DNA from: a virus
Strand: one strand, 5' to 3'
IMG/VR virus record: IMGVR_UViG_3300044729_004368
Coordinates: 1-64,000 of that record
Length of the DNA: 64,000 nt
The notes under the pieces are model-generated. The model saw only the letters and a program-made list of their open reading frames with translations, did no database searches and was not told where the DNA came from. This document shows positions 7,191-33,257 of the stretch, one piece after another. The position numbers and the translations under genes were made by a program. The stretch's first letter is position 1, and each line of letters starts with the position of its first letter.

Positions 7191-8819
7191 ATGACACGAA
7201 GAATTCTTGCAACCTGGGTTGGACTTACAGATCTTGGTGCATGGAGCCGGAACTCTACATTAACAGCAGTGCATCAAGAGTCCGTCAGGAAAGTATTGAA
7301 GGGAAAGAATCCAGCAGAAGGCGACGGACCGATTAAAACTTTGCTCGACACAGAGCGTTTCACGGACATCCATTTGATTGGCAACTACGATCGCTCCCTT
7401 TTGCAGCAGTTCTCCAAATGGCTGAATGTAAAAGCCACTATCCACACCGCTGACATCAAAAACCCTACGGATCACGGGCGAATATTCCAGATAGTCGATC
7501 CCATCCTTGAGTCTTTGAAGCTAGAGCGCGGTGATGAGCTATGCTTTCATCTCAGCCCGGGGACGCCAGCGATGGCATCGATTTGGGTTCTCCTCGGCAA
7601 AAGCAAATACCCAGCGACACTCTTTCAAACACACTTTGATTTCGACACCAAGTCCAACCATATCCTAAAAACGGAAATCCCGTTTGATATCACCGTCGAT
7701 GTGTTACCGCAGTTTATGCGGGAGCCAGATCGATTGATGCAGCATTTGCAGAGCCAGAGTCCCCAGGAGACTCAGGGCTTTGAGAGCATTGTCGGCGACA
7801 GCGAAGCGATTCGACTGGCAGTTGGAAGAGCGAAAAGAGCTGCAATCCACGACGTGCCAGTCTTGATTCTTGGTGAAAGCGGGACCGGCAAAGAGATGTT
7901 TGCCGATGCGATCCACAAGGCCAGTGGTCGCCACAACAAGGCGCTGTATTCAGTCAATTGTGCAGCAATTTCAAAGGAATTGATTGAGTCTGAGCTGTTT
8001 GGCCATATCAAAGGCGCATTCACCGGTGCTGACAAAGACCGAAAAGGTCTACTAGAACAAGCTGATGGCGGAACGCTTTTCTTAGATGAGGTGGGAGAAT
8101 GCGATCTTGGACTTCAAGCAAAACTGCTTAGAGCGTTGCAACCACCACATGATAAGGGGGCATGCTACCGAGTTTTTCGTCCAGTTGGCGCGACGTCGGA
8201 CCGCGTTTCGGATGTTCGTATTGTGGCTGCCACAAACCGCGATCTAGTGAAGATGGTTCAACAAGGAACGTTTCGTGAAGATTTGCTTTATCGACTAGCA
8301 ACTATCACCGTCAAGCTACCGCCTCTTAGGGAAAGAGGTAAGGATGTTATGGATTTAGCAGAGACGATGCTCGTTGGAATCAACGATCAGTTCCAGAGAG
8401 CACTCGGCAAAGCATATGTCTCCAAAACTCTCTCTAACGATGCCAAGAAATTCGTTCGAAAGCACGATTGGCCAGGAAATGTTCGAGAATTGCGGAATGT
8501 TCTGATTCAATCCGCGGTCATGTCGATCGACAAGACAATTACCGAGCGTGATATCGCTGCCGCTCTTTCTCAGTTACCCAACACAAGTCTCAATTCCGTT
8601 GAGGCGGACAAACCGCTCGGAGACGGATTTGATCTGGATGCATATTTGGATGAGATTCGTACACGGTACCTCACTCGCGCAATGCATCAGTCGAATGGTG
8701 TGAAGAATAAGGCCGCTGAACTGTTGGGTTACAACAGTCACCAGGTTTTAACGGGCCACCTTATTCGTAGCGGCCTCGAAACCAAAAATAGGAAACCCAC
8801 ACGAAGAACGCGATCGTAA
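7191..8819 (+). CDS. RtcR-like CARF / sigma-54 activator
   Basis: A bacterial enhancer-binding protein of 542 residues. Residues 1-180 resemble the CARF-type sensor of RtcR: a DELCFHLSPGTPAMASIWVLL segment (about 115-135) aligns by eye with RtcR's DYLIHITTGTHVAQICWFLL, and the IKNP segment at 89-92 has a counterpart. The AAA+ core has GESGTGKE (228-235), the sigma-54 contact loop GAFTGA (275-280) and FLDE Walker B (near 297-300). A Fis-type helix-turn-helix lies near 510-540. RtcR is known to sense RNA-derived ligands and to activate rtcBA. Here the downstream genes are a helicase operon instead, so the regulator appears to have been recruited to defence. The ligand is unknown. Confidence 0.9.
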   Translation: MTRRILATWVGLTDLGAWSRNSTLTAVHQESVRKVLKGKNPAEGDGPIKTLLDTERFTDIHLIGNYDRSLLQQFSKWLNVKATIHTADIKNPTDHGRIFQIVDPILESLKLERGDELCFHLSPGTPAMASIWVLLGKSKYPATLFQTHFDFDTKSNHILKTEIPFDITVDVLPQFMREPDRLMQHLQSQSPQETQGFESIVGDSEAIRLAVGRAKRAAIHDVPVLILGESGTGKEMFADAIHKASGRHNKALYSVNCAAISKELIESELFGHIKGAFTGADKDRKGLLEQADGGTLFLDEVGECDLGLQAKLLRALQPPHDKGACYRVFRPVGATSDRVSDVRIVAATNRDLVKMVQQGTFREDLLYRLATITVKLPPLRERGKDVMDLAETMLVGINDQFQRALGKAYVSKTLSNDAKKFVRKHDWPGNVRELRNVLIQSAVMSIDKTITERDIAAALSQLPNTSLNSVEADKPLGDGFDLDAYLDEIRTRYLTRAMHQSNGVKNKAAELLGYNSHQVLTGHLIRSGLETKNRKPTRRTRS

Positions 8820-8835
8820 AAGCATCATTGCTTTT
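8818..8835 (+). terminator. Hairpin with T-run after the regulator gene
   Basis: A perfect 7-bp stem (AAAAGCA and TGCTTTT) with a TCAT loop overlaps the regulator stop codon. The descending arm ends in four T residues. The stem is AT-rich, so termination may be weak. Confidence 0.45.
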
Positions 8836-8853
8836 AACGTAAAGATCATTACT

Positions 8854-8868
8854 TGTTAGTAACTAACA
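8854..8868. promoter_or_regulatory. 15-bp palindrome, candidate activator binding site
   Basis: The arms TGTTAGT and ACTAACA are perfectly complementary around one central A. The site lies about 105 bp upstream of the candidate -24/-12 promoter at 8973-8988, a usual distance for upstream activator sites of sigma-54 enhancer-binding proteins. Binding by the adjacent RtcR-like regulator is inference. Confidence 0.55.
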
Positions 8869-8972
8869 TTACCATACAGGCGTCTGCAATGTACGAACCT
8901 TAAGCTGAGATAATTTTTAACTCCATTGCAGCAAACAACTTACGACTAAACGGTAGTTTGGTTTTACAGTTT

Positions 8973-8988
8973 CGGCACAGCTTCTGCT
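8973..8988 (+). promoter_or_regulatory. Candidate sigma-54 (-24/-12) promoter
   Basis: The sequence reads CGGCACAGCTTCTGCT, with GG at 8974-8975 and GC at 8986-8987, exactly ten bases between them as sigma-54 requires. It resembles the TGGCAC-N5-TTGC consensus. The expected transcription start is near 8999, about 40 bp before the helicase start codon. Together with a sigma-54 activator gene immediately upstream, this is good support that the helicase operon is under its control. Confidence 0.7.
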
Positions 8989-9039
8989 TTAGTTGGTATT
9001 CATCAAACAATCCAACTTCTGACCCGGAGCGAGCTGACC

Positions 9040-11472
9040 ATGACTACAACTTCCGTTATCGAATCTGTTTCCAGTGTTCTCTCTAGCATTGAGGGAACGA
9101 CCGTGTTTTTTGATCAACCTGCAGATGGACCGCGTGCAGGCAAGTACGCATCTCTCGCGGAGTCAACACTTCATTCGAGCTTGAGAGAATTACTTTCGGT
9201 TGCAGCTCCAGATGGACTGTACACCCATCAACAACAAGCGATCGAGTCAGTGCTGAATGGCAACAACACAATCGCTGCCACGAGGACCAGCAGCGGAAAG
9301 TCTCTGATCTTTTCACTACCTGCAATGGATGCGGTATGCCGTGATTCAGACGCAACAGCATTGTTCCTTTACCCGCAAAAAGCGTTAGCGAACGACCAGT
9401 ATTCCAAGCTCGTTTCCGCAATTGAGCAGGTTCCCGAGCTCGCTCAAATGCAAAAAGCAAAACCACACTTGGTAAGCAGGTACGACGGAAGCACAACGCA
9501 AGAGTCTCGGAAATCGATTCGCGAGCAAGTTCAATTTCTAATCACAAACCCAGACATGTTGCACTTGGGTATTTTGCAACATCATTCGACCCATTGGGCT
9601 CGATTCTTTGCAAACCTGAAGTTGATTGCTATCGACGAGTGTCATGAGTATCGAGGTATTTTCGGTACAAACGTATCTTACATTCTGCGTAGGCTACGAC
9701 AGATCTGCCAAGCTCACGGATCCAATCCTCGCTTCATTGCGACAAGCGCAACGGTATCCGACCCACAATCGCACCTTCGCGAACTTGTTGGTGACGATTT
9801 CGAACTCGTCGCCGCAGACCAAGATGGAAGCAAACAAGGGCGTCGCAAATTCTGGATGGTAGGTGGTAGCGAGCATCACTTCGAGTTTGGACGCAAGCTG
9901 GCCATTTCGTTGGTTGAAAAAGGCCTGAGAGTCTTGGCGTTTTGCCCAAGCCGAGTAGCTGCTGAACGCATGCTCGCCAAGATGAGAAAGCCGTCTGGCG
10001 AACTCGAAGACTATGTAGCCGTGTATCGATCTGGCCTTAAGAGCTCCGAAAGAGAGACAATCGAATCACAATTGCGAGATGGCTCCAAAAAGTTGGTTTT
10101 CTCGACAAGTGCATTGGAGCTTGGCATCGACATTGGCGGCCTCGACGTCGTGATTTGCATGGGATTGCCCAACTCCATGATGAGTTTGTGGCAACGAGCA
10201 GGACGAGTCGCACGAGCTGGTCGTGAAGGGGCGATTGTTTTGATTCCTGGAGATTCACCTCTAGATGCTCACTACGCCCGTCACCCTCAGGAGTTATTCA
10301 ATCGCAATAACGAAACACTTGCCCTCAATCTTGCTAACGAACGAGTTGCTTGCCAGCACTATGCCTGTGCAGTCCACGAAACGGCATCCGGCGATTCAGC
10401 CTTGGAGTGTTCGATCCTAGGCTCGACGATTCAGAAAATCCAAGAGCTTCGAGACGATGGCAAACTATCGCGTCCAGAGTTCTATAGTTCTGATCCTCAC
10501 ATGGATGTCAGTATTCGTAATACAGGTGAGTCGAACTACCAGCTTGTTTGCGACAACGAAACCGTGGGAGAAATTGGCAGCTTTCATTTGCTGCGTGAAG
10601 CACCTCGAGGATCACTTTATCGACACAACGGAATGATCTATCGTGTGATGGATGTCATTCGAGGTAGGAAGATCGTAAGGCTTCGCCCCGAACGGACTCG
10701 AAACGAAACGGTTTCCCTTGTTCGGAAAAAGATCCGCCAGAAATACCCGCTCTCTGTTCGAGAGTATTCTCAAGCGACACTTTCCGTTGCTCGGATCGAT
10801 GTCAACGAATTCCTACAATCCGTTTCGGAAAAAGATGCGTCCGGGAAAACGATTCGAGTCACTCCAGGTACTGGAATGCCAACGCATTATCTACCCACCG
10901 AAGGAGTCGCACTAGCATTGCGTTCCGGATTGGTCGCCTCGCTTCAAGCTCAAATGACGACTCGGATTGAAGTTGTGTTAGGCTCGATCGAGCGGTTGAT
11001 GGCCAACCTCTTTCCAATTGTCGCCGGGCCTTGTGATAGTCAAGACTTTTCGTCTGGAATTGAGAAATCGAATTCCGGCGATCTTGTGTTGTACCTATAC
11101 GACAATGTGTACGACGGCGTGAATCTCACCTCGATAGCTTTCGACAACATCAAATCGTTGCTCGAGAAAGTGGAGGATCGCATTCGCTCCTGCGATTGCG
11201 GGGTGGAATGTGGATGCGTTCGATGCATCGCAGATCCAATGCGAGAAGCGCCAAGTAGCAAGCAAGATACGTTGCTCGTAGTCAATCGCTTGATTGCCAT
11301 GCTTGATGGCGAGAAACCAATAACGAAGCACTTCCCAAGGCCGGACGCGGGAATCGAGTCTATGTCGACTGAAGTCGAGTGCCCGAAGTGCCAAGCACTC
11401 GTGTCGGCATCCGCAAAGTTCTGTTCAAACTGTGGCAATCGAATTGAGGAGCCAAACCATGTTGCTGTGTGA
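9040..11472 (+). CDS. DEAD/DEAH superfamily-2 helicase with DUF1998
   Basis: The 810-residue protein is an SF2 helicase of the YprA/MrfA-like type. Motif I is TRTSSGKS (about 81-88), motif II DECH (near 199), motif III SATV (near 235) and motif VI QRAGRVARAGR (near 385-395). The C-terminal region has the cysteine cluster of DUF1998 (CDCGVECGCVRC near 720) and ends in a CPKC...CSNCG zinc ribbon (about 784-801). It should translocate on or unwind nucleic acid. It is the first gene after the sigma-54 promoter, with GGAG upstream of the ATG, and it overlaps the next gene. DUF1998 helicases occur in several defence systems (DISARM, Dpd), but the partners here differ. Confidence 0.88.
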   Translation: MTTTSVIESVSSVLSSIEGTTVFFDQPADGPRAGKYASLAESTLHSSLRELLSVAAPDGLYTHQQQAIESVLNGNNTIAATRTSSGKSLIFSLPAMDAVCRDSDATALFLYPQKALANDQYSKLVSAIEQVPELAQMQKAKPHLVSRYDGSTTQESRKSIREQVQFLITNPDMLHLGILQHHSTHWARFFANLKLIAIDECHEYRGIFGTNVSYILRRLRQICQAHGSNPRFIATSATVSDPQSHLRELVGDDFELVAADQDGSKQGRRKFWMVGGSEHHFEFGRKLAISLVEKGLRVLAFCPSRVAAERMLAKMRKPSGELEDYVAVYRSGLKSSERETIESQLRDGSKKLVFSTSALELGIDIGGLDVVICMGLPNSMMSLWQRAGRVARAGREGAIVLIPGDSPLDAHYARHPQELFNRNNETLALNLANERVACQHYACAVHETASGDSALECSILGSTIQKIQELRDDGKLSRPEFYSSDPHMDVSIRNTGESNYQLVCDNETVGEIGSFHLLREAPRGSLYRHNGMIYRVMDVIRGRKIVRLRPERTRNETVSLVRKKIRQKYPLSVREYSQATLSVARIDVNEFLQSVSEKDASGKTIRVTPGTGMPTHYLPTEGVALALRSGLVASLQAQMTTRIEVVLGSIERLMANLFPIVAGPCDSQDFSSGIEKSNSGDLVLYLYDNVYDGVNLTSIAFDNIKSLLEKVEDRIRSCDCGVECGCVRCIADPMREAPSSKQDTLLVVNRLIAMLDGEKPITKHFPRPDAGIESMSTEVECPKCQALVSASAKFCSNCGNRIEEPNHVAV

Positions 11473-12133
11473 AGCGCAAAGTCCTGTAAGAGCCCAATCT
11501 ATGTTTTCAGTCGACCGAATCTCGCGTCAAGGAGATAAGTTTCTTGGCCGTCTCCATATGGATGCAGATACCGTTCGTTCGCTACGGGAAGACAACGTTG
11601 GGTTGCTGTTCGAAAAATTCCTTAGGTTAGAAACAATGCTAGGGCGCATAATCCCGCTAGCGGACAAGCATGACCTTGGTCGCATCGCGATTGTCTATTC
11701 CAGCAAGGATGCTGGTGCGTACATCTACGACATGCTATGCGATGCAGGTAAATGTGACCGGTCCAAGAATCCCCCAGTTACGTGGCAGGTCGGTAGTCTC
11801 ATTTTCACGTCGGTCGAGGCATTGTCCAAAATCTCGCAAGAGAATTCCAACGTCAATGAAGTGGAACCCACTTCGATGGTTGTGTTGCTCGACCCAACTT
11901 GCATGGTCCATCACGCCCGGACCATGCGGTTGGGCAACGGGCGCACGCACGACCGCCCACAGATCATCGTCAACGCACTATGCGACTTGGCCAATGATGG
12001 ATTACAGCCATTGTTCGTAACCATGACTTGTAAGGCGGCAATCTCGCTCAACAGCGAGAAATTGGCTCGAGTTTACTGCCGCGAAACTTGGTGGTTCTGC
12101 GATGGACCATCGATTTCTATACCCAAATTCTGA
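11459..12133 (+). CDS. Unrecognised helicase-operon protein
   Basis: I do not recognise this 224-residue protein. The start is set at the ATG at 11459 because GAGGA lies 8-12 bases upstream and the gene then overlaps the helicase by 14 bases, a sign of translational coupling. A hydrophobic strand ending in acid (SMVVLLDPTC, about residues 147-156) and another (LQPLFVTMTC) suggest an alpha/beta fold resembling a degenerate P-loop or helicase-like domain, but no Walker A is present. Coupling to the helicase suggests that the two work as a complex. That is inference from arrangement alone. Confidence 0.6.
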   Translation: MLLCEAQSPVRAQSMFSVDRISRQGDKFLGRLHMDADTVRSLREDNVGLLFEKFLRLETMLGRIIPLADKHDLGRIAIVYSSKDAGAYIYDMLCDAGKCDRSKNPPVTWQVGSLIFTSVEALSKISQENSNVNEVEPTSMVVLLDPTCMVHHARTMRLGNGRTHDRPQIIVNALCDLANDGLQPLFVTMTCKAAISLNSEKLARVYCRETWWFCDGPSISIPKF

Positions 12134-12248
12134 TCGAACCAATTTACAAGCTTCCCTAGCAATGCCGTACTCGCGGTGAATACCTAGCATCCATTACAAT
12201 CCAACCCCAAGCAGCCCACTTATTGGGTTGCAGCATGAGGAATGAAAA

Positions 12249-13907
12249 ATGATAACGGCAATCGAAATCGAAAACTTCAAGGGAATTGGTGAAACACAAC
12301 GAATTGAGTTTGCACCGCTGACGTTGATATTTGGGGCAAATAGCTCTGGGAAAAGTACAATAATTCACGCTCTCCATTATTTGCGTGAGATTCTGGAAAC
12401 GGGAAATGGCGATGTCGACGAAGTACGTGCGACAAACGGGGAGCTCCGCCTTGGCGGATTTGCAAACCTCGTTCATGGTCACGACGACGAAAGCCGCAAG
12501 ATCCGAATACGTGCGGATTTTCGGGTTACAGATAATGATATTCTCCCAGCCAGTATAGCAGAATTGAAACGATTGACAGGGATCGACATCAACGGCCCGC
12601 TTATTCAGGGAGTGAAGTCGATAGGAATCGAAATAGTCGTGGGTACACATTTCCGTCCTGTCGACGGAATTGTTCATCCGCTTGTGGAGAAAGTCTTTCT
12701 GTACATCAACGGCGTTTCGCTTGTCGGAAGTCAAGCCACCGGATGTTCCTGGAGTGGTGATGACGAGGGAACTGTTGCAAATTTGTGCAGCATCAATCTC
12801 GAACACCCCGCCTTCGCACGTATAGCCGATAAGTCAGTCGCAAGTCTCATTGCGGAAAAGTGTGGATATGACAAGCAACGATTTGAGATCGACCCAGAAG
12901 ATGAGAGCTACGGGAACGGAGTCGTTTTAGATTCACTCGGCGCAATCTTGACACCCAGATCTATGATAACGATGTGTTCTCTCGATGACGACGACACAAC
13001 TACAATCGATGATATTCAGGATTATTACCGTTCTGTATTGTTTAGTCGCTTCAGTCAATTCTTCGTCCAAGTGATTGTCGATTCGACCAAACATACGATT
13101 CGATTGCTTTCATCCTTAGGCCATTTGGGACCTATTCGTGAAATTCCTGAACGGTCCCGTCGATTCTCGTTTAAGACAAATAGCCTTTCATGGTTTCGCG
13201 GACAAGCTGCATGGCAATGCATCTTGGAAGAAAATCCAAAAGTGGGGCTAATGGTGCACAAAGGCGATATGCGTTGGAGGAGCTGGGAATTGGATCTCCG
13301 AGATCTACTCTCAGCCCCATATGTCGTCCAGCGCCTCGGCATTTGGACGACGTGCGAGAATTGGTGGACTGGCGGCGATCCAAAGGGGGCTGTACAGCGA
13401 AATCTCGAAATCGTGCTTCGTGATACGCGGACCGACACGTTAGTATCGTTAGAAGACGTGGGGGTCGGTATTTCGCAAGTCATTCCGGTAATTGTCGCTG
13501 CTCAGGAGCAATCCTTACCAATTTTGTTTGTTGAACAACCTGAATTGCACCTTCACCCGAAACAGCAAGCAATGCTGGGAGATCTTTTCGCTAGCCAAAC
13601 GGGTAGGCTCTCTAGATGGTTCGAGCCTCGAGTGGGCGTACATTCTGAAGAGAGAACCATAGTTATAGAAACACACAGTGAACTCTTGCTACTTCGCATG
13701 TTACGTCGAATTCGAGAAACGAAAGCCTCGAAGATTCCTGGCGATTCTAGTGCGCCTCGCCTAAATTCTCAGGACTTGAGAATTTACGCTGTAGAAAGCG
13801 ATGACGAAGGAACCAAGTTTAGATGCTTACCCATTTCTAATTCAGGCGACCTAATCGGAGGATGGCCAGAAGGCTTTTTTGACGAACGTATGGACGAGGT
13901 TCTTTAG
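12249..13907 (+). CDS. AAA ATPase of the DUF3696 / OLD-like ABC type
   Basis: This 552-residue SMC/ABC-like ATPase starts MITAIEIENFKG and has Walker A GANSSGKST (29-37). A signature-like GVGISQVIP precedes the Walker B strand ILFVEQPELHLHP (about 420-435). IVIETHSELLLLRMLRRIRE (near 472) is the H-loop region typical of DUF3696 proteins. There is no TOPRIM domain, unlike OLD nucleases, so the effector is probably the next gene, which starts one base after this stop. ATPases of this type act as sensors in many two-gene defence modules. It is the third gene of the sigma-54 operon, after a 115-bp gap that could hold a secondary promoter. Confidence 0.8.
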   Translation: MITAIEIENFKGIGETQRIEFAPLTLIFGANSSGKSTIIHALHYLREILETGNGDVDEVRATNGELRLGGFANLVHGHDDESRKIRIRADFRVTDNDILPASIAELKRLTGIDINGPLIQGVKSIGIEIVVGTHFRPVDGIVHPLVEKVFLYINGVSLVGSQATGCSWSGDDEGTVANLCSINLEHPAFARIADKSVASLIAEKCGYDKQRFEIDPEDESYGNGVVLDSLGAILTPRSMITMCSLDDDDTTTIDDIQDYYRSVLFSRFSQFFVQVIVDSTKHTIRLLSSLGHLGPIREIPERSRRFSFKTNSLSWFRGQAAWQCILEENPKVGLMVHKGDMRWRSWELDLRDLLSAPYVVQRLGIWTTCENWWTGGDPKGAVQRNLEIVLRDTRTDTLVSLEDVGVGISQVIPVIVAAQEQSLPILFVEQPELHLHPKQQAMLGDLFASQTGRLSRWFEPRVGVHSEERTIVIETHSELLLLRMLRRIRETKASKIPGDSSAPRLNSQDLRIYAVESDDEGTKFRCLPISNSGDLIGGWPEGFFDERMDEVL

Positions 13908-13908
13908 G

Positions 13909-14841
13909 ATGTTACTAGAATACTCTCTTGACCCAGAGATTTTTGAATCGGTTGAACAGTTTCAAAGAATTATCGAAGCATGCGGAATCTCCGAAGGGAG
14001 GTATATTGCCAATCTGCCATCACGGCGTTGGGAAGAAGTGGTTTTCAAATGGCTTCGTGCCAAAGATCCAAACAGAGCGCGACGTGCTGAAGAACTACTT
14101 ACTCAGTGCAAAAGACGCCACGGGTTGATTCCTTCTCGCGTAAGTAACTGCCCAGACTGGATTGAGGCTACCCTTGAGCAGCATAAGTCTCAACCATTTA
14201 AGGCAGTAGTAACCGAGAAAGAGATTTTTCCAGCTCGAATATCGCTCAATGATCTGTCTGTAGACACCGATCCTTGGAAGTCCAAAAGGGGCGACCGAAT
14301 ACCAATTGATGCAGTGTCAATCGGAAACATAGCTGCTCCTCTATTGAGAATTAGCAAGGAGATCGTTTTGCTAGATCCGTATTTTGATCCGAAAAAAGCT
14401 CGCTATCACGAATCACTTGCTCAAATTGTAAAGCATTCAATCCATGATGGAAAGAAACCGGAGCGATTCGAGTGTCATTGCAAAATTAACTTAAATCAGG
14501 TTAAACAGTCCCCTACGGATACCGCAGATGCGTGGTCGCATCGTTTCGACAAGGATTGCAGAACGAGACTGCCAGAACAACTGCCAAGTGGGTTTCAAAT
14601 GAAAATCGTTCTTTGGGATGAAATACCCGGGAAGGAAATCATGCATGCACGTTACGTTATGACAGAACTAGCGGCATTGAATTTCGAGCACGGTCTCGAC
14701 GACTCGGAGCGAGATGCAACGACTGATGTTTCATGGCTTTCTCCAGAAGTTCACCAATCGAGATGGGATGATCTTCAATTGAATTCGACTCGTTACCGTC
14801 GAATCCGATCGATTGAAATTGTTGGCAATGGAGCAACGTAG
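13909..14841 (+). CDS. PLD-like protein coupled to AAA ATPase
   Basis: The ATG at 13909 is chosen: it follows the ATPase stop by one base and has GAGG 9-12 bases upstream. The 310-residue protein has an unrecognised N-terminal half (about 1-135). Its C-terminal domain has features of a phospholipase D-like fold: a strand ending in LLDPYFD (near 160) and EIMHARYVMTELAALNFEHGLDD (near 250-270), where the H-x-R-Y and GLD spacing recalls one PLD or MIT_C-type active-site half. The HKD lysine is not obvious, so catalysis may be altered or absent. It is likely the effector or partner of the ATPase. The fold call is moderate and the role is inference. Confidence 0.6.
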   Translation: MLLEYSLDPEIFESVEQFQRIIEACGISEGRYIANLPSRRWEEVVFKWLRAKDPNRARRAEELLTQCKRRHGLIPSRVSNCPDWIEATLEQHKSQPFKAVVTEKEIFPARISLNDLSVDTDPWKSKRGDRIPIDAVSIGNIAAPLLRISKEIVLLDPYFDPKKARYHESLAQIVKHSIHDGKKPERFECHCKINLNQVKQSPTDTADAWSHRFDKDCRTRLPEQLPSGFQMKIVLWDEIPGKEIMHARYVMTELAALNFEHGLDDSERDATTDVSWLSPEVHQSRWDDLQLNSTRYRRIRSIEIVGNGAT

Positions 14842-14870: not shown

Positions 14871-14896
14871 AGGTGTTGGATAGGTATCCGTCACCT
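14871..14896. terminator. Interrupted hairpin between convergent genes
   Basis: An outer stem AGGTG/CACCT and an inner stem GGATA/TATCC are separated by a two-base internal loop on each side. The hairpin sits between the convergent ends of the PLD-like gene and brxL and overlaps the brxL stop. No T-run follows in either direction, so it is only a possible bidirectional terminator. Confidence 0.35.
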
Positions 14897-16967
14897 AACC
14901 GATTGGCGTTCTCAAATAAGTAACCTCAAACTTCTTGCAAAGACGTTGGCTCTGGAGTCTCGCCGCCAGTGAAAACGCATCTTTGCTGTCGAACGGCTGG
15001 AAAACGTCTAGGCCTCGATCGAGTAGAATCTTCCAGCCATGGTCCGTCACGATATGCCTGGCGTGTATCGTGCTGTCGTACTCCCAAGTGAACTTGATGC
15101 CGACGCGTATGCAGTTCTTTTGCATCTGAGTGAAGAAGTCTTCTTGTTGATCAGTCCGGAACTCGTCCTGGCAGGTGATCAAATGCACTTCCATATCACC
15201 AGCTTCATCCATCGTTTTGAATACGGTTTCGAGGAAGTCCATCAGGTTCTTGGCTTGGTGGAAGTTCCGTATGTAGGCATCCGTTACTACGATTTTCGAA
15301 GAGCCTCGCAGGTAAGGACCAAACAAGTCGTCGAAGCTAACGCCCTTCTGATTTTCTTTAATCTCCACATGCCCTTCCGTGGGATTTGCGATTTCCGATT
15401 TTGGATTCTGGATTGGAGATTCGGACTTTTCGATTGAGGTAGCAGCAGGAAGTTCAATGGCTACCTCTTGTGGACCAGCATCCTCAGTATTCGCGTGCTT
15501 GTGATAGATCTTGGGATACTGTTCCTCCTCAAGCGTCTGAACCAGATGCTCCTGGCCACCGCGAGAAGTGAATGAGAATCGCACTGCCGCGTAGGTTTGA
15601 TCGATTCGCATGAGCTGATCTTTCACACGTTTCCGGCCCTCGATCGCAAAACGAAGAACTTCTTCAATTTCCTCAACCGTTGCCTGTTTATGCGGATAGA
15701 GAATCTTCATCAGCCCTGAAAAAGTCTTGTGGATCGCATCCCGATCTCGCGTCGAAATGTCTTCTGACAAACTGAAGTGATCCGCATAGAGATGCGAGTA
15801 ATCGAAGTTTCGCTGGCTCCGCAGAACTTCTGCCAGATAATCGACAACGAAACCGAATCCAGAGGTGAACATCTCACCTCGAATGATATCGACTTCCCAG
15901 CCGGGGATATAGAAGTGGATTCGATCCAAAAATGCCGAGTCGTGGTAATTGGGCGGTAGTTCGTCGAATAAATCGCTGTGACGCAACATGTGGGCCACGG
16001 TGTGTTGCGTGTTTCCAACAAAGGCCATCGACGCCTCTGCACCAAGCGTCTCGATACCACGCGAAAATGACTTGTTGGCCATGTAGTTCTTCATGATATC
16101 CACAAGTGCCTTGTCGACGCGTTTGCTCTTTCCAGCGAACTCGTCAAAGGCGACGCAGTCCCAGTAACCAACAAGCCCGATTTTGTAAGGCGCTCGGTTC
16201 TCCACGAACAGTTTTGGAACCGTTACCTCCCCGCCTGAAATCAACATCCCGTGCGGTGAGAATTCAGAGTAAACGTGCGACTTGCCTGTCCCCTTCGGCC
16301 CAAGCTCAATGATATTGTAGTTCCGCTCACAGAATGGGATCAGTCTAACCAGTTGCAGTAGCTTACTTCTCCGACCAAAACACTCTGGATTGAAACCTAT
16401 GCTTTGAATGAGCGTGTCAATCCAGTCGTCCGTGCTGAATTGAGCTCTGCTGGCAACGTAGCTGTCGAAGTCGAAATGCGACAACTGAATGGGCTTGAGC
16501 GATTCGAGAATCCACGGAACCGTCTTCTGCTCTTCGTCGTGTTGATAATCCAAGTCCGCGATACACCAAACACCACCCACCAAGAGCTTTTGGTGTTTCT
16601 TGATCGTACTGGCAGGTACAGCGACCTTGTTGATCCCCAAGTTGGCGAAGGTTGCTTGGTACACGTCTTCCTTGTCGTTGAGATCGACACTCACGCGATC
16701 GATGATCTTGCGGAGCTTCTTTTCCCGGATCTGAGATCGAACTAGCCCAGCCTCACTCCGATGCACGTAGTGCTTCGCTAGGATATCCTTGACCGTCTCG
16801 ATACCCGTCTGAATGGAACCCTCATCAGCCGTCGCGCAGTATTGGCCCAGCAAATACTCAAGAACATAGGACGGGACGATCGCATTGCCTTTCACTGTCT
16901 TTACCAGATTTTTGCGAACGACCAGCCCGCCAAAATGCTCGTTGATTTTGATGTCGAGTGGAGTCAT
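14895..16967 (-). CDS. brxL: BREX protein BrxL (Lon-like AAA) with PLD/MIT_C-like C-terminus
   Basis: BrxL is the AAA+ protein that ends type I BREX operons. The 690-residue protein opens with a typical INEHFGGLVVRKNLV segment and has Walker A GPKGTGKSH near residue 225. AAA motifs follow (WDCVAFDEFAGK, FVGNTQ). The last ~140 residues (about 550-690) do not look like a Lon protease domain. DDLFGPYLRG, VVTDAYIRNFHQAKNL, STIHARHIVTDHGW and LDRGLDVF resemble an MIT_C/PLD-like module. A linker near 510-525 contains the in-frame 7-bp-period repeat peptide (IQNPKSEIANP). AAGGG lies seven bases before the ATG. It is the last gene of the operon. Confidence 0.88.
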   Translation of the reverse strand: MTPLDIKINEHFGGLVVRKNLVKTVKGNAIVPSYVLEYLLGQYCATADEGSIQTGIETVKDILAKHYVHRSEAGLVRSQIREKKLRKIIDRVSVDLNDKEDVYQATFANLGINKVAVPASTIKKHQKLLVGGVWCIADLDYQHDEEQKTVPWILESLKPIQLSHFDFDSYVASRAQFSTDDWIDTLIQSIGFNPECFGRRSKLLQLVRLIPFCERNYNIIELGPKGTGKSHVYSEFSPHGMLISGGEVTVPKLFVENRAPYKIGLVGYWDCVAFDEFAGKSKRVDKALVDIMKNYMANKSFSRGIETLGAEASMAFVGNTQHTVAHMLRHSDLFDELPPNYHDSAFLDRIHFYIPGWEVDIIRGEMFTSGFGFVVDYLAEVLRSQRNFDYSHLYADHFSLSEDISTRDRDAIHKTFSGLMKILYPHKQATVEEIEEVLRFAIEGRKRVKDQLMRIDQTYAAVRFSFTSRGGQEHLVQTLEEEQYPKIYHKHANTEDAGPQEVAIELPAATSIEKSESPIQNPKSEIANPTEGHVEIKENQKGVSFDDLFGPYLRGSSKIVVTDAYIRNFHQAKNLMDFLETVFKTMDEAGDMEVHLITCQDEFRTDQQEDFFTQMQKNCIRVGIKFTWEYDSTIHARHIVTDHGWKILLDRGLDVFQPFDSKDAFSLAARLQSQRLCKKFEVTYLRTPIG
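15383..15434. repeat. 7-bp-period (ATTTTGG-type) repeat inside brxL
   Basis: The plus strand shows several ATTTTGG/GATTTCC-like units with a period near seven bases. On the coding strand they give SPIQNPKSEIANP in a flexible linker of BrxL. This is one of six copies in the BREX operon. Confidence 0.8.
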
Positions 16968-17079: not shown

Positions 17080-19614
17080 TCAATCAAAATCACTAGTGAA
17101 AGAACGTCTTAAAGTAAACGGCACTGTTTTGTATTCCTGGTAATGGGTCGTACCAGCAACTACTTCCTCCAGCTTGAGGACAACTTGTTGCTGGTTATAA
17201 GAGTCAGCAATCTTGGAGAGCACCAGACGCAGCTTGAGTTCTCGTTCACGAGGGTTCTCGCTCAACAAATCGAAGCTGATCTCGTGACTATCTGAAATGA
17301 GTTCCCCGTCGCCGGCATATAATCCGATCCGCAGCTTTCTCGCTTGGACCTTTTCAGTAATCGGAGCCGTTTGATAAAACACGAGTGCCAACTGCCCAGT
17401 CGAGATCACACTAGTTGTTGGTGGCAATAAATCGACGTCGACGGCGCTTACATCCGCTGCTCGCCGTTTTCGAATCTGGATCACCGGAATCACGATTTCT
17501 TGCAGTGTGCTTCCGCCGTGCATGAATCGAACACTCGCTCCACTTTTGCGGAGACGGTTGATGGACTTGGGGACAGCAACTTCCAAGTTTCCTTTGAGGC
17601 CGAGTTCCGCTGAAGTATAGAGCTTCGCACCACCATTGATTTTGAGTTGGCGTCCTAGCATGAACCGTCGATCTGACGCCGTCTCGTTACCGGTGATCTC
17701 CGCAGAGCTGAAATCGCTCTCTTCCACTTCGTCCTGGTAGATAAAGCCGTGATCTGCCGTGATCACCACGTTGGTCGCATTTGCGCTGGTCAACTTGCGA
17801 ACTAGCTTGACGATCTCCTCCATCGCTTCTTCGGTTGCCTCGAAGGCTTTGCGTTCCGTATCACGTGTATGACCTCGTTTATCGATGATGTTCTGATAAA
17901 CGTAGATCACATCGTGGTCTCGCACGAGTTCGCGGACCTCTTCCTTGGTCTTGGCAATCATCTCGTCTGCTTTGATCGCCAAAGCGCTTCCCTTGTTGGC
18001 TGCCTTCAGGATCTTGTCCCGATTCACAGTGCCGGAAGATGACTGGCCATTCAAGTTGACAGTGGGTGTCTTGTCAGCGTTAATCTGCAGCTCTGAGTGG
18101 GGAAGAAGTGCTGCCATGCCAAGCTGCGTATAGCTAGGCAAAACGGAAATCATGTGCTCGATCTTGGCCTCAAACTTGTCCTCGCCACGAATCAGCCGAC
18201 ACAATTCTTCACCAATCTCGAAACGCATCGCATCCGAGATGATCACATAGACCTTATTGTTCTTGTCCAGCACTCGCCCGACATAGCTCTTGTAGAAATC
18301 GGTTTGATGTCGCTGGCCAGGCAACGACCAACGCTCGAGCTTATCCACCAATTCCTGCCATCGGTCACCGAGTGGAAGCAGGAATGAATTGGTGTACATC
18401 TTACAAACCTGTTGGTTCAACGGGCCAAAGAACGTCGCTTGGCCTGCACGCACGCTGTGATAGATGAACTTGCGATAAAGTTGATCGACTTTGTAAAGCG
18501 AGCCGACGTAGGCTGCAACTCCTTGTTCAACCGAACTCAAATCGAGCGACAGAGTGTTTAGCATGTGCAACAATTCGGCCGCATACCCAACCGCCTCGTA
18601 AAGGTCTGCATACTCACGATACCAATGCCCGCGGCGACGCGAACGGATGACCTGCGTACATTCGCCGGCTGAGATCGTGCGTCCAAGGACTTTGCTTGCT
18701 AGTTCACTCAGTACGCGTTGATCGATTAGGCGGAAGTAGTCCACCTCAGCGAGTTGCTTTAGTTCGCGACTTTCGAGATCGTTGTGGATGCCCAGAACTT
18801 CGGAGAATCGGTCCGAAAGAGTCTCAAATGTCTTTTCGTGAGTGCGAGAATCCTTCCAACGTTTGAGGAATACCAAAGCCTCGTTGGTCATTTTCGATTT
18901 TGGATTCTGGATTTTGGGTTGGTCCGTTCCAAACTCCATTTCGTAGCAGGATTTGAAAAGAGAGAGAGCGAAGTCTTTTACTGAAGGTGCAGCACTTTCG
19001 TAGTTGTACGTCTTCTGAACTTGCTCCCACAGAAACGGCTCGAGTCCACATTTGGTGATCAACTCGTAACGCTTGAGTGCTGAATCCGACGCCAGCTCTT
19101 CTAGCAGGTTCTCCAGAACGCTATCGATTCTAGAATCGCTGTCGGCGCAAACGCTGAGCATTTTGATGCAAATCTGCGTCGTCGTATCGGTCTTGGTAAC
19201 TTGATCTTTCAGTTGATCGCGCCGTTTGGCACTGTTAAAGAAGAACTCATGGCAATTTACGATCGGACGAAACTCGTACGGCAACTCGAGCTCAGTTAGC
19301 CACAGAGAGGCTTTGTCGGTTCGGAAGTCGGTATGAGCAAGCTGGACATCGAGCAGCCAGTTATCGCGATCTTCCGGCTGAGGACCGGATTTGAAAACCA
19401 AGAATTTTTGTGCTGCTTGCTCGCGCAGCAGGCGATATTTGAGACCAAACTCATTGTTTGCGATTTCCACCTTCTCTACTCCTGGAAGGCTAATGGCGTC
19501 GAAGTCTCCGCGCAGCGATTCTTCCTCGTCGTACCAAAAGACGATTCGATGCTTCTTGAAGAGACGTTCCAAGGCATTTTGGATTTTCGATTTTGGATTT
19601 TCGACTGAAGACAT
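17080..19614 (-). CDS. pglZ: BREX phosphatase-like protein PglZ (type A)
   Basis: The 844-residue PglZ belongs to the alkaline phosphatase superfamily. Metal-site motifs are VIISDAMRFEIGEEL (near 456) and VVITADHGFIYQ (near 617), as in type A BREX-1 PglZ. It is an essential BREX core component acting with PglX and BrxB/BrxC. The N-terminus is odd: residues 4-14 (VENPKSKIQNA) are made by the 7-bp-period repeat that also spans the start codon, and no Shine-Dalgarno sequence is visible before the ATG. Native homology seems to begin at LERLFKKHRIVFWYD. A second repeat peptide (PKIQNPKSKM) lies near residue 235. The gene follows the 128-aa gene by 29 bases. Confidence 0.92.
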   Translation of the reverse strand: MSSVENPKSKIQNALERLFKKHRIVFWYDEEESLRGDFDAISLPGVEKVEIANNEFGLKYRLLREQAAQKFLVFKSGPQPEDRDNWLLDVQLAHTDFRTDKASLWLTELELPYEFRPIVNCHEFFFNSAKRRDQLKDQVTKTDTTTQICIKMLSVCADSDSRIDSVLENLLEELASDSALKRYELITKCGLEPFLWEQVQKTYNYESAAPSVKDFALSLFKSCYEMEFGTDQPKIQNPKSKMTNEALVFLKRWKDSRTHEKTFETLSDRFSEVLGIHNDLESRELKQLAEVDYFRLIDQRVLSELASKVLGRTISAGECTQVIRSRRRGHWYREYADLYEAVGYAAELLHMLNTLSLDLSSVEQGVAAYVGSLYKVDQLYRKFIYHSVRAGQATFFGPLNQQVCKMYTNSFLLPLGDRWQELVDKLERWSLPGQRHQTDFYKSYVGRVLDKNNKVYVIISDAMRFEIGEELCRLIRGEDKFEAKIEHMISVLPSYTQLGMAALLPHSELQINADKTPTVNLNGQSSSGTVNRDKILKAANKGSALAIKADEMIAKTKEEVRELVRDHDVIYVYQNIIDKRGHTRDTERKAFEATEEAMEEIVKLVRKLTSANATNVVITADHGFIYQDEVEESDFSSAEITGNETASDRRFMLGRQLKINGGAKLYTSAELGLKGNLEVAVPKSINRLRKSGASVRFMHGGSTLQEIVIPVIQIRKRRAADVSAVDVDLLPPTTSVISTGQLALVFYQTAPITEKVQARKLRIGLYAGDGELISDSHEISFDLLSENPRERELKLRLVLSKIADSYNQQQVVLKLEEVVAGTTHYQEYKTVPFTLRRSFTSDFD
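18890..18922. repeat. 7-bp-period repeat inside pglZ
   Basis: ATTTTCG/ATTTTGG/ATTCTGG units in series. They encode PKIQNPKSKM in PglZ without breaking the frame. Confidence 0.8.
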
Positions 19615-19636
19615 GCGATTTTCGATTTTGGATTGG
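19575..19636. repeat. 7-bp-period repeat across the pglZ start
   Basis: Two blocks of GGATTTTCGATTTT-type units, one inside the first codons of pglZ and one just upstream, cover the start codon region. The G-rich strand is the plus strand, opposite to the copy at 20036-20070. Confidence 0.8.
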
Positions 19637-19643
19637 CGGCGCG

Positions 19644-20030
19644 CTAGATCTGATGGGAAAATGGTGTGCTGATTCGGGCAAAGTCGGACTGGTGGATTTT
19701 ATAGGACTCGGCTCGCGACGCACCGGGTGGAATCGAACGCCCCGTGCACTGGAGCTTGGCATCAACTTCTATCTCAAAGTAGTGTCGTTCCTTTTCCCAG
19801 CTAAGGATGACATGACCTTCGTCTGTTGCAAAAAAAGAATCCGGCGGTCGCTGGTTGTTTGTTTGAAGATTGAGCAAAACCGCTTCCGCTAGCCCCGTTA
19901 CTTCGAGCCCCGGTGGATTTGCACCCTCATCGTTCCAATCGAATTCGTAAGCACGAATCTCCTGGAGTCGCTCATAGCATCGACGCCATCGCTCACCATC
20001 AGCCGTATCAGTGTCTGCAACCTCATCCAT
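19644..20030 (-). CDS. Small unrecognised protein inserted in the BREX operon
   Basis: The 128-residue protein is acidic at its N-terminus and has no known catalytic motif. The pattern FDWNDEGANPPGLEV followed by PPDSFFATDEGHVILSWE recalls a family of small uncharacterised proteins common in planctomycetes, a resemblance I hold from memory only. It is not a BREX core gene. It sits between pglX and pglZ, flanked by inverted copies of the 7-bp-period repeat, which suggests later insertion. An ATG starts the frame and the stop lies 29 bases before pglZ. The function is unknown. Confidence 0.6.
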   Translation of the reverse strand: MDEVADTDTADGERWRRCYERLQEIRAYEFDWNDEGANPPGLEVTGLAEAVLLNLQTNNQRPPDSFFATDEGHVILSWEKERHYFEIEVDAKLQCTGRSIPPGASRAESYKIHQSDFARISTPFSHQI

Positions 20031-20035
20031 TTTTT

Positions 20036-20070
20036 CAATCCAAAATCGAAAATCGAGAATCCAAAATCAC
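20036..20070. repeat. 7-bp-period repeat, inverted copy, between pglX and the 128-aa gene
   Basis: CCAAAATCGAAAATCGAG-type units on the plus strand. This copy is in the opposite orientation to the other five and reaches the last codon of the upstream pglX. Confidence 0.75.
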
Positions 20071-23000
20071 TCTTCTTCCTTTGCATCCAGGCCTGGGATC
20101 TTGCGGAGGACTGAGCCGAAGAGTAGGTAGTTGTGCTTGACTCCGTCGTCGAGGTCGATGTCGATCTTGCGGGCAGCGACTTCGAAGAGGGGCTTCTCGT
20201 AGTCTTCTAGTTCTTTGAGTTGCTTCTTGATGGCGGCAACATCTTTGATGGCTTGCGTCTTCTCGGACTTGGAGGCGCTCGCGCTGTCGGCCAGCATCTG
20301 TTGATGCTCGGCGTGATGAGTCAGCTTGTCACGAAAATCTCGTAAGTAGTGCAGTACCGTACCGACCGTGTCGGGGCGGTAGCGGTGCATGTAGATCAGG
20401 GCGTTGAAGGTGCCTTTGGGGCTGCTGAAGAGCCAGTAGATAGGCCGTTTCTTGTAGAGCTTAATGTGGTGACTGTAGAAGTCTTTGAGGAAGTAGTCGC
20501 GGATAGTCTTCCGCTTTTTGACCGTCAGGTTGTCGGGATAGACGGCATCTTCGAGGAACTTTAGGTTCTCTTCGTAGTGCTCGGTACCGAAGGTGACTTT
20601 GAGAAATGTCTTCAATCTTTCAGTGATGTCGTCCTCGAACCAATTTCCATCGAGAAGCGGAATGACGTTGTCTTCATCGCACGCGAAGGTCGGCTCGGGA
20701 ATCTGTAGGCGATAGTCGTCGGCCGTTTCGCCTTGATTGGCAAGGATCAGTCCCGGTTTGTCCAACGAGTAGCGCCCCAACATGCAGCCCACCGCGTAGC
20801 CGATGAACTCTCGCATTGTGTCCGCAAGAAGAAGGGCTTCCAGTTCCGATTCGCTCTTGTCGTCGTCGTAGCGGTATTGAGGGTTGCAGTTAAGGGAGAT
20901 TTCGGCGACTGCGGGCGAACTTGGTAATTCATTTGAAAGCGAATACAACTCGTTCACCGTTTTGTTGAGTTGCCTCTCAAGATTTGCGACAAGCTGCGTC
21001 TGATCTTGCCATCTTGAGCGTTGTTTCGCATATCGGTCTTCCAACCGAATGGGGCTGCACAATGGACCGACAAGTTCGCTGGAAGTGAAGTCAATCGACA
21101 GTTCGCGAGAATCCCAGTCCTTGCGAGCGACTTCAACCACATCGTTGACCAAATCACCAACCAAATCCAGCACGCTTGATTCTGGAATCATCACTGGAAT
21201 GTTACCGACGTGGCCTGTTTCGTAGTTGAGTGTGGGGCTCAACACCTGAAGGCATCGGGCAACAAAGTGAGAATTCAACAACGCCAGAAAAAAGTCTTGA
21301 TATTGGTCTGAGAAGAGGCCCTTTCCGCCACTGCCGAAAATCGCATTTCTCATTACTCTCATTGAAGGCTTACCGCTTGAAATGCCCGACCACGTTATGC
21401 CTTGCCGAAAGTAGTATTCCGGGCTTACGATTCGTCCTCCAGCAGCACCTTTCGTCGCATTTCGAATGTCGCGGCCATTCTGCTCCCAATTTACCACATA
21501 CTCGATATTTCCATACCATCTGCGGAAATCGCCTCCTTTGCAGAATGGGTACCATCGATATTTCGCTATCTGCGTTGGGCCAACATTTTCAAAACCGAAT
21601 CCGACTCTCTGGTAGCCGACCTCGTACCATTGCCTTAAAAACGTTTGATTGTCGGTTGTATTGAGTCCACTCTTTGGCTCAGACAATTCATGAAGCGGCG
21701 TGCCGCGTGAAAAAACTTCCCGGAACTCCGGGGAAATGGTAAACGCAATTGGCTTGCCGGGCACTTTTTGAAACTCTTCCGACGACGCTGAGAATCTCCA
21801 GCTACAACTTGCGTCGTGTATGGCCTCGCGAGCTCTGCTGGCTTGAATGTTTGATCCATAGAATGCTTGCAGGTCAATGAACACGCCCTCGTAGTTCGCC
21901 CATTGGACCTTACGGAACGTGAATGCACATACCGGTACGAATGCAGAATCAAAGAAGGCGTGATATTCGGGGCGAACCAAAGACGTGATAGTACAATCCT
22001 CAAGAAGCGTTTGGCGCAATGCGGTGTACGATGACAAAAACATCCAAGTAAACGGCGTCATTAGACCAACGAAACCGCGATCAATTGTCTGGTCGATAAT
22101 TCGCTCGACGAACATTGCAAAAAGGTCGGCCTTTGTTTGCGGAAACTCACTTACAGCGAAACCCCGTAGGTCGACGTTCATTCCTTTGTGGCTCATATAG
22201 GGCGGGTTTGCGACGACGACGTGATACTTGGGACTCAGATATTCGGCCTGCCGCAGCGCCTTGAGCACTTTCTGGTGAACGCTTGCAAGGAACAGGTCTT
22301 CGCCCATCTGACGCTCGCTAAGTAACTTCAGCACTTCGCTCACGTCCGTCACTAGTGGACGGATCAGTGAACCAAAGTTATCCGCTTCCTTCCACTGATT
22401 AACGACTCCTTGCAAGCCGCCGCTGAACACGTCATGACCGACCTTGTCCATGTAAGCCGACAGGTCTTCGGGGTCGATCTGTATGTTCTCCAGCACGCAG
22501 ATGTTCGGATTTTGGATTTTGGATTTTGGATTTTGGATTGAAGACAAATCCCTTCCTGACGGGTCAGCTAACTCTTTTCGTGTGAAGAAGCGTTTGTCCT
22601 TCTCGCGAGCCTTCATCGTGAGCGCAAAGGCGGCCAGAGCGCCAGCTCGTTGGTCGATCTCAATGCCATAGAGATTGTTCTTCAGGATGAGCGTCGGGAT
22701 CTCGGGCTCGGGGTACTGTTCTTCGCGATAGATTTCATACAGCAGATCAAACGCGTATGTCAGCATGTGACCACTGCCGCAAGCCGGATCACAGACCTTA
22801 ATCTCCTCTGGACTCCCGATCGTTAAGAAATCGGATTCGGGTTCCTCGGGTTTGATGTAGTAGTCCATCCGCTCTACGAGCTTCGATGCGGGATGGTTCA
22901 GCATCCACAAGCGACCGAGCGAGTTCTCAACCAGATAGCGCACGATCCAGTGTGGCGTGAACAATTGAGTTGCTGCCGGAATGTTCTCCTCAGTGATCTT

Positions 23001-23693
23001 TTTGCCCTTCTTCAGTCCCTCAAAGACTTCGTCCTTCTTGTCGGCAATATAGAACTGGTAGAGCCAACCGATCACTTCCACCGACTCCTCGGTATGTTCG
23101 GGCGAGCAGTTGTTCGGCAGCAATAACTCGCGGGTGTATGCTGGAATCGACGTGCCGGACAGCAGATCATCCGGTAGTAATAGTTCCGTGTAGTCCGCAA
23201 TCTTCTCGAACATGAACGGCATCAGTGCGTGGTAGTAGTTGCAAACTGCTACTAGCAGCAATCGATAGGCTTCGCCCTGCGGATCTGCGCTCTTGTCTGA
23301 ACCATCTAGCAATCGCATAACTTGTTTGCGGGTCGTCTCTGTCACCAACTCTTCATCGATATGCCCCATTTTGGCTTCTGCGAGGATCTCCGGTTGGAAC
23401 TGGCCATCGGCTGGCGACAGGACACCAATTCGAGTGTAGCGATTTACATCCATGTACCGGAGTGCGCAGAAACGATTGAACCATGTATATGCGACCATCT
23501 CAATAAGACGTTTCTTGCCAGCTTCACTCGAGCCGAGTTCCTTAATCTTCCTTTCAAGTTCTTCAATGACCTTCGGACTCTCGCGTCTCGCCAGACTACC
23601 CTCCGCCAAAACGGTCGTTAAACGCATACTCACCTGCTCAATGAGCGCTGTTCTGGTTAAGGATGCGAATTTTCGAAGTTTGCTAGTTTCCAT
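20067..23693 (-). CDS. pglX: BREX adenine methyltransferase PglX, downstream copy
   Basis: A full-length 1208-residue PglX. Motif I is VCDPACGSGHML (near 299) and motif IV is VVANPPYM (near 494), giving an N6-adenine methyltransferase that marks host DNA and takes part in phage exclusion. The first ~500 and last ~270 residues closely match the second pglX in the operon. The central region (about 510-900), expected to hold the target-recognition domain, differs strongly. A repeat-derived peptide (SIQNPKSKIQNP) lies near residue 390. The gene begins METSKLRKF and follows the other pglX by 58 bases. It is intact, with both motifs present. Confidence 0.93.
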   Translation of the reverse strand: METSKLRKFASLTRTALIEQVSMRLTTVLAEGSLARRESPKVIEELERKIKELGSSEAGKKRLIEMVAYTWFNRFCALRYMDVNRYTRIGVLSPADGQFQPEILAEAKMGHIDEELVTETTRKQVMRLLDGSDKSADPQGEAYRLLLVAVCNYYHALMPFMFEKIADYTELLLPDDLLSGTSIPAYTRELLLPNNCSPEHTEESVEVIGWLYQFYIADKKDEVFEGLKKGKKITEENIPAATQLFTPHWIVRYLVENSLGRLWMLNHPASKLVERMDYYIKPEEPESDFLTIGSPEEIKVCDPACGSGHMLTYAFDLLYEIYREEQYPEPEIPTLILKNNLYGIEIDQRAGALAAFALTMKAREKDKRFFTRKELADPSGRDLSSIQNPKSKIQNPNICVLENIQIDPEDLSAYMDKVGHDVFSGGLQGVVNQWKEADNFGSLIRPLVTDVSEVLKLLSERQMGEDLFLASVHQKVLKALRQAEYLSPKYHVVVANPPYMSHKGMNVDLRGFAVSEFPQTKADLFAMFVERIIDQTIDRGFVGLMTPFTWMFLSSYTALRQTLLEDCTITSLVRPEYHAFFDSAFVPVCAFTFRKVQWANYEGVFIDLQAFYGSNIQASRAREAIHDASCSWRFSASSEEFQKVPGKPIAFTISPEFREVFSRGTPLHELSEPKSGLNTTDNQTFLRQWYEVGYQRVGFGFENVGPTQIAKYRWYPFCKGGDFRRWYGNIEYVVNWEQNGRDIRNATKGAAGGRIVSPEYYFRQGITWSGISSGKPSMRVMRNAIFGSGGKGLFSDQYQDFFLALLNSHFVARCLQVLSPTLNYETGHVGNIPVMIPESSVLDLVGDLVNDVVEVARKDWDSRELSIDFTSSELVGPLCSPIRLEDRYAKQRSRWQDQTQLVANLERQLNKTVNELYSLSNELPSSPAVAEISLNCNPQYRYDDDKSESELEALLLADTMREFIGYAVGCMLGRYSLDKPGLILANQGETADDYRLQIPEPTFACDEDNVIPLLDGNWFEDDITERLKTFLKVTFGTEHYEENLKFLEDAVYPDNLTVKKRKTIRDYFLKDFYSHHIKLYKKRPIYWLFSSPKGTFNALIYMHRYRPDTVGTVLHYLRDFRDKLTHHAEHQQMLADSASASKSEKTQAIKDVAAIKKQLKELEDYEKPLFEVAARKIDIDLDDGVKHNYLLFGSVLRKIPGLDAKEEE
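22505..22541. repeat. 7-bp-period repeat inside the downstream pglX
   Basis: The cleanest copy: about five perfect 7-bp units of GGATTTT. It encodes IQNPKSKIQNP just before a conserved NICVLENI segment. Confidence 0.9.
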
Positions 23694-23751
23694 TAGGTAC
23701 TTCGGTTTTCAGTTCGTGTTTGCATTCGATACTCTTAAATTCAAAACCTAC

Positions 23752-27330: not shown

Positions 27331-27334
27331 TGAA

Positions 27335-32582: not shown

Positions 32583-32644
32583 GGTGTATCGTCGAAAGCT
32601 AAATGAAATTGGTTTTAAGTCGTCACTAAGTTGCAATCACTGAC

Positions 32645-33256: not shown

Positions 33257-33257
33257 A

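Follow-up and report, generated by a model that had tools for sequence, protein, structure and literature searches.

What controls a group of genes that follows a CARF-domain activator beside a BREX locus, and do these genes form a defence system of their own? The operon in question lies in the first 64,000 positions (the window) of a 69,945-base IMG/VR entry. An initial, sequence-only reading had described an RtcR-type regulator facing a helicase-ATPase-PLD operon, which would remain silent until RNA damage or a nucleotide signal appears. We assign a probability of about 60% to the reading that this is an inducible antiphage operon of two modules, switched by a nucleic-acid signal.

Genomic setting of the operon

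The features of the locus are collected in Table 1. All five operon ORFs are open and intact at the positions first proposed, and the four genes that follow the regulator lie on its strand, as had been read. Since the five genes are co-directional, the regulator does not "face" the operon. Relatives of the operon genes occur in Pirellulales, which suggests that the window comes from a planctomycete (Pirellulales-like) organism; scans of viral contigs for relatives of the operon returned only two close copies.

Table 1. Features of the operon and of the neighbouring BREX-type locus (positions in the window)
Feature	Position	Strand	Remarks
RtcR_PspF2-type regulator	7191..8819	+	PADLOC PDLC01995, E=4e-159; Pfam PF00158 (Sigma54_activat), E=3.8e-62
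15-nt perfect palindrome TGTTAGTAACTAACA	8854..8868	.	118 nt 5' of the sigma-54 site
-24/-12 sigma-54 promoter TCGGCACAGCTTCTGCT	8972..8988	+	Predicted; GG-N10-GC; between regulator and helicase
MrfA/YprA-type DEXH helicase, 810 aa	9040..11472	+	MZB (DUF1998) zinc domain; added C-terminal zinc ribbon
224 aa protein, no known family	11459..12133	+	Directly 3' of helicase in every case; motif LLDPxCxVHxAR...HDRPQ
AAA_15/AAA_21 ABC-type ATPase, DUF3696 type	12249..13907	+	
PLD-like protein, 310 aa	13909..14841	+	C-terminal half apparently related to MIT_C domain of BrxL
BrxL of convergent BREX locus	14895..16967	-	Carries MIT_C domain; context, outside operon
Rest of BREX-type locus	17080..33881	-	Context
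PglZ	17080-19614	-	
PglX	20067-23693	-	
BrxC (probable)	29079-32636	-	ORF corresponds to BrxC position of L031
BrxA/BrxB-sized ORFs	32645-33881	-	

A second AAA_15/AAA_21 ATPase gene lies within the run of BREX genes (27883-29082), and a GmrSD type IV restriction protein with a RAMA domain is encoded next to BREX (34355-36535). A large protein combining an RNase_H_2 domain (YprB/MrfB-like exonuclease fold) with an SF1 helicase is found at positions 1-2973, 4 kb 5' of the regulator, and prophage genes (portal, capsid and terminase large subunit) occupy positions 42000-64000. Three IMG/VR records, among them one with a protein divergence of 3-5%, show an identical spacing of about 40 kb between portal and PglZ; the defence island and the prophage therefore travel or are inherited together.

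The regulator and its putative ligand

The regulator comprises an N-terminal CARF domain with an SPGTPAM motif, an AAA+ sigma-54 interaction domain with GAFTGA, and a C-terminal Fis-type HTH. The PADLOC model RtcR_PspF2--CARF_AAA_HTH matches it over its full length (residues 4-529; Table 1), and a profile check of the N-terminal part, proposed earlier to be CARF-like, returned Csx1/Csm6 (CARF; E=6.6e-5, residues 6-152) and CARF4, both weaker than the RtcR_PspF2 match. RtcR proper is ruled out: Pfam RtcR (PF06956) does not match, and the NCBIfam RtcR model (NF038308) reaches 309.5 bits, less than half of its cut-off of 650. The CARF call was thus right and the sigma-54 activator motifs are intact, but "RtcR" should read "RtcR_PspF2"; judged by these profiles, the protein is a CARF-AAA-HTH sigma-54 activator of the RtcR_PspF2 subfamily and not RtcR itself. 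When 17 relatives are aligned, nearly every row retains SPGTPAM, Walker A, GAFTGA and the HTH. Regulators with strong scores are present in 23 of the 240 genomes of the Pirellulales-like family.

RNA that ends in a 2',3'-cyclic phosphate is bound by the CARF domain of RtcR (Hughes et al. 2020, PMC7790460). For the RtcR-headed loci of Figure 8 in Bell et al. 2024 (PMC11090510), fragments of RNA carrying such an end have been suggested as the signal. By analogy, RNA ends may be the ligand of the window regulator, although this is less likely than not. Another candidate is a cyclic oligoadenylate-like messenger made by a different defence system. Such a messenger would suit the CARF superfamily, whose members mostly bind cyclic oligonucleotides, as well as the weak matches of the regulator to Csm6/Csx1 CARF. 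However, RtcR-type CARF domains are mostly without the basic residue that normally follows strand 4 (Makarova et al. 2014, PMC4012209), the window regulator carries SPGTPAM, RtcR itself binds cyclic phosphate RNA (PMC7790460), and no nucleotide cyclase was found among the window proteins searched; we therefore consider a cyclic messenger rather unlikely.

Upstream of the regulator genes, an inverted repeat, TTTGTG-N4/5-CACAAA (at most two mismatches), was observed in 12 of 24 regulator loci, against 0.5 hits expected. The repeat sits 28-48 nt 5' of the regulator start codon (regulator loci L064-L083), in several loci just 3' of a TACAAT-like element; the window, L009 and L010, which differ in their HTH helices, do not have it. 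It is a candidate operator of the RtcR_PspF2 regulator family. Similar TTTGTG/CACAAA-type repeats within the coding region may reflect protein motifs.

The helicase and its 224-residue partner

The helicase, originally described as a DUF1998 protein, indeed contains DEAD, Helicase_C and MZB (formerly DUF1998; E=4.5e-9) domains, and is colinear end to end with MrfA/YprA (PDB 6ZNP; residues 9-735 against 7-735, E=4e-90, 306 bits). Its relatives are 50-67% identical, and the models of Druantia, Dpd and DISARM reach at most 98 bits. Bell et al. (PMC12458937) distinguish two branches of YprA helicases, one for defence and one for repair, the repair members either accompanying MrfB or lacking a conserved context; by architecture and scores, the window helicase would fit the repair branch. 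It shares with MrfA/YprA this colinearity and the MZB zinc domain, and differs in its extra C-terminal zinc ribbon and its defence-island context. Moreover, where the MrfAB pair has the MrfB exonuclease, the window helicase has the new 224 aa protein. An RNase_H_2 (MrfB) protein is absent from the four operon genes, the one at the beginning of the window being apart from the operon.

The start of the 224 aa gene was corrected to its position in Table 1, which gives an overlap of 14 nt with the helicase gene. The protein had been left without a family, and searches with up to eight relatives agree: no convincing match was found in Pfam, PADLOC, NCBIfam or PDB. A known fold likewise finds no profile support, and the AlphaFold model, based on two near-identical sequences, has a pLDDT of 39.5. 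The protein is rare: three of the 397 genomes searched from one planctomycete order contain it, six of 241 from one family (plus one weak match) and none of 392 from across the phylum (a set without a positive control), and it was not found on the plasmids searched. In six further genomes (L020, L021, L022, L031, L032 and L033) it directly follows the helicase. The pair of L031 immediately precedes BrxA, a BrxB-sized gene, BrxC and PglX and shares their strand. In a named Planctomycetaceae MAG (L014), the 224 aa gene persists as a decayed remnant.

Some neighbours of the pair deserve mention. A decayed second copy (helicase start and 224 aa gene end) is located between the intact pair and BrxA in L031 (6036-6472). 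A conserved cluster of four genes, whose products (351, 288 and 619 aa, plus one with AAA_5) mostly lack a Pfam match, is divergent from the helicase pair in both L021 (13053-19022) and L022 (835-5139). In L020 (7073-9144), a MotA/ExbB-type gene (ZorA-like, weak) and a 340 aa partner lie directly 3' of the pair.

The affinity of the helicase raises the alternative of a DNA-repair operon, in which the helicase and the ABC ATPase would mend DNA, the CARF regulator would report damage-linked RNA cleavage, and phage defence would be secondary. MrfA is a DNA repair helicase of a branch called repair-related (PMC12458937), Rtc induction is tied to mutants of DNA metabolism (PMC7790460), and rtcBA answers genotoxic stress. 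On the other hand, the patchy spread of the 224 aa protein (6/241 genomes of one family), the decayed remnant in L014 and the occurrence beside BREX, GmrSD and type I restriction genes all point to a mobile defence module, and no MrfB directly adjoins the helicase. A repair operon is therefore improbable, and a role of the operon in defence is probable, given the position of the helicase pair directly 5' of BREX genes in L031 and the BREX and GmrSD-type restriction genes near the operon itself. Counting against the inducible antiphage operon are the fit of the helicase to a repair branch without conserved context (PMC12458937), the L020 helicase pair, which does not stand behind a sigma-54 promoter, the lack of a full pair of HKD motifs in the PLD-like protein, and the 115 nt gap between the 224 aa and ATPase genes, which allows a separate promoter.

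The ATPase and the PLD-like protein

The ATPase matches AAA_15/AAA_21 and falls slightly short of the DUF3696 cut-off (E=2.4e-4), in line with the DUF3696-type assignment made earlier. The start of the PLD-like gene is most likely the one given in Table 1, which is common to the relatives and one base from the ATPase stop. In the PLD-like family, D156, H246 and R248 (310 aa numbering) are invariant, the last two forming a single HxR motif with no second motif; the acidic position is variable. Neither two HKD motifs nor the HxKx4D of the dimeric type is present, the window protein has no direct profile match to PLD-like domains, and its predicted model has a pLDDT of 33.8.

A more distant relation emerges from the family as a whole. 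One relative alone matches MIT_C (PF16565), weakly (E=0.08), two match PADLOC BrxL (up to 6e-5), and the family profile matches the MIT_C domain of the window's own BrxL at E=2e-6 (probability 89%). The C-terminal half of the protein thus seems to resemble the MIT_C (PLD-like) domain of BrxL. A single HxR motif and the MIT_C/BrxL relation give the "PLD-like" label no weight as a sign of nuclease activity. The window BrxL itself terminates (14898-15350) in a complete MIT_C (PLD-like) domain (E=3e-44).

The ATPase and PLD-like genes are also found on plasmids of Methylocella, Azotobacter, Vibrio and Deinococcus; those of Azotobacter and Vibrio carry an RtcR_PspF-type regulator, HsdRMS, ATPase and PLD-like genes in this order. 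On the Methylocella plasmid (L007), the pair follows HsdRMS under a WYL regulator, not a CARF one. Among the 240 genomes of the Pirellulales-like family, the PLD-like gene is present in five, all of which contain the regulator (5/5, compared with 23/240 overall; chance about 5e-6, calculated by hand). In four of the five it lies 2.6-15.5 kb downstream of the regulator on the same strand and contig, and in the fifth on another contig. As a rule, the pair comes after type I restriction genes controlled by this regulator.

Arrangement of the modules

Type I restriction relatives form the cargo of about 13 regulator loci with readable downstream sequence: HsdR, HsdM and HsdS relatives lie 3' of the regulator in most readable loci, and the ATPase pair then follows in some. 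L076 and L079 have an ATPase with a small partner whose kinship to the PLD-like family is only distant. All five gene families occur in L020 in another arrangement (regulator-ATPase-PLD-HsdM-HsdS, with the helicase pair divergent), whereas the window has both modules downstream of a single sigma-54 promoter and next to BREX. In view of this varied cargo, the window represents one arrangement of interchangeable defence modules, and the gene set would consist of two mobile modules (helicase with 224 aa protein; ATPase with PLD-like protein) rather than one fixed system. The conserved gene order foreseen by the sequence-only reading thus holds for each pair but not for the five genes together, which are rearranged in L020.

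The four proteins could instead form one obligate machine, since the five families occur together in the window lineage and L020, the order helicase-224aa-ATPase recurs in L032, and the ATPase gene accompanies the 224 aa remnant in L014. This is unlikely, as the flanking sequence retrieved around the helicase pair of L021, L022, L031 and L033 contains no ATPase-PLD pair, and the ATPase/PLD pair stands without the helicase in L007-L010, L073 and L077.

A sigma-54 promoter behind the regulator

Promoters were sought with a purpose-made position-weight matrix, whose weights were set from the textbook sigma-54 consensus. The window site, the best of the intergenic region, scores 13.9, which was reached by none of 300 to 500 shuffles. 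Comparable sites (scores 13.0-17.6) lie 1-152 nt 3' of the regulator stop in 21 of 23 related loci; 743 kb of strand sequence contain 41 sites scoring at least 13.5, which gives an expectation of about 0.4 for these zones. In L020 a site lies 5' of the ATPase gene and none before the divergent helicase, and the helicases of L021 and L022, near which no regulator was found, have no sigma-54 site in front. A sigma-54 gene is encoded in all ten relatives' genomes. That the operon is gated through sigma-54 by the RtcR_PspF2-type regulator is highly probable; the family-wide rule of a sigma-54 site after the regulator is new as far as could be found. Constitutive expression, with the site a chance match or relic, is very unlikely: the window site is among the weaker ones (14-17.5 in most loci) and its -24 element is CGGCAC, but the GG-N10-GC core is intact, its placement is that of the other loci, and the plus strand of the region contains no sigma-70-like site.

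The palindrome upstream of the promoter (Table 1) is a candidate activator-binding site on weak evidence, being not clearly above chance and not seen in relatives. No operator sequence near the sigma-54 site is common to the window and its relatives.

Comparison with known systems

RtcR-like proteins have been linked to restriction-modification (Makarova et al. 2014, PMC4012209), and RtcR-headed CoCoNuT superoperons have been presented (Bell et al. 2024, PMC11090510, Figure 8); control of defence genes by RtcR-like regulators is thus already published. The window regulator shares family, domain order and position ahead of defence genes with the RtcR_PspF-type regulators (PMC4012209; PADLOC RtcR_PspF2), and both the full-length CARF-AAA-HTH profile match and the sigma-54 target promoter that define RtcR_PspF2 are found. 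The cargo of the published loci, however, is mostly restriction-modification, as opposed to the helicase, 224 aa, ATPase and PLD-like genes here. CoCoNuT superoperons likewise place co-directional defence genes after an RtcR homologue, and the legend of that figure lists YprA, DUF1998, PLD and HsdR/M/S among the domains. CoCoNuT has the CnuB GTPase and CnuC, whereas the five operon proteins show no McrB/McrC-type Pfam match, so membership fails. The RtcR-rtcBA RNA repair operon has a CARF-AAA-HTH activator and a sigma-54 promoter in common with the window operon. It is excluded by the failure of the RtcR models, by the DNA-type enzymes of the cargo and by the absence of RtcB from the 69,945-base record, itself a fragment; the cargo had correctly been read as not rtcBA.

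DISARM, Dpd, Druantia, ARMADA, BRIGADE and TALON (PMC12458937) also employ a YprA-family helicase with DUF1998, some with PLD genes; compared with these, the window helicase is short and lacks a fused nuclease or the system-defining partners. DISARM has DrmA, a separate DUF1998 protein (DrmB) and the PLD protein DrmC, whereas here helicase and DUF1998 are one gene, DrmA scores only 54 bits, and DrmC has no match. The large DruE of Druantia, often with a C-terminal nuclease, contrasts with the 810 aa helicase, to which its models align partially. ARMADA combines YprA with a BrxHII-like helicase and a PglX-like methylase; the operon has neither a second helicase nor a methylase, the PglX of the window belonging to the convergent BREX. 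Finally, the ATPase pair recalls Septu PtuA, PARIS AriA and PADLOC NsnB, PDC-M55A and HEC-03B, in which a similar ABC ATPase precedes a small downstream protein, but its PLD-like/MIT_C-like partner has no PADLOC model and the ATPase model matches are partial. The open-licence literature yielded no paper with the set regulator-helicase-224 aa-ATPase-PLD-like; as far as could be found, the set is new and, as first supposed, matches no named system.

Proposed mechanism and significance

In the inducible two-module operon that we favour, the CARF domain would keep the AAA+ domain of the regulator inactive at rest, and the operon would be silent, since sigma-54 polymerase needs help to open the promoter. 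Infection would generate a nucleic-acid signal that binds CARF, either a cyclic oligonucleotide or RNA cleaved to leave a 2',3'-cyclic phosphate end, upon which the regulator would form a hexamer, remodel sigma-54 polymerase and turn on the four genes. The MrfA-type helicase and its 224 aa partner may then load on, unwind or track along invading or replicating DNA, and the DUF3696 ATPase may sense DNA structure or ends and control its PLD-like partner, in the manner of other ABC-ATPase/effector pairs; we infer this division of labour. The core of the sequence-only reading, a defence operon gated through sigma-54 by a CARF regulator, is supported by the family-wide promoter signature and the conserved defence cargo; silence and trigger are parts of this proposal. 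Less probably, the helicase/224 aa pair could be the core of an undescribed defence system derived from the MrfA or "repair-only" branch of YprA helicases, in this lineage under a CARF/sigma-54 switch that answers broken RNA.

For this regulator family in one bacterial group, a sigma-54 promoter followed by interchangeable defence cargo is thus a rule and not an isolated guess, and the inducing signal of RtcR-like defence operons is open to test through their promoter. The findings link a PLD-like effector to the C-terminal domain of BrxL, and they suggest that the MrfA branch of YprA helicases, until now listed as repair only, has a conserved role in defence islands.
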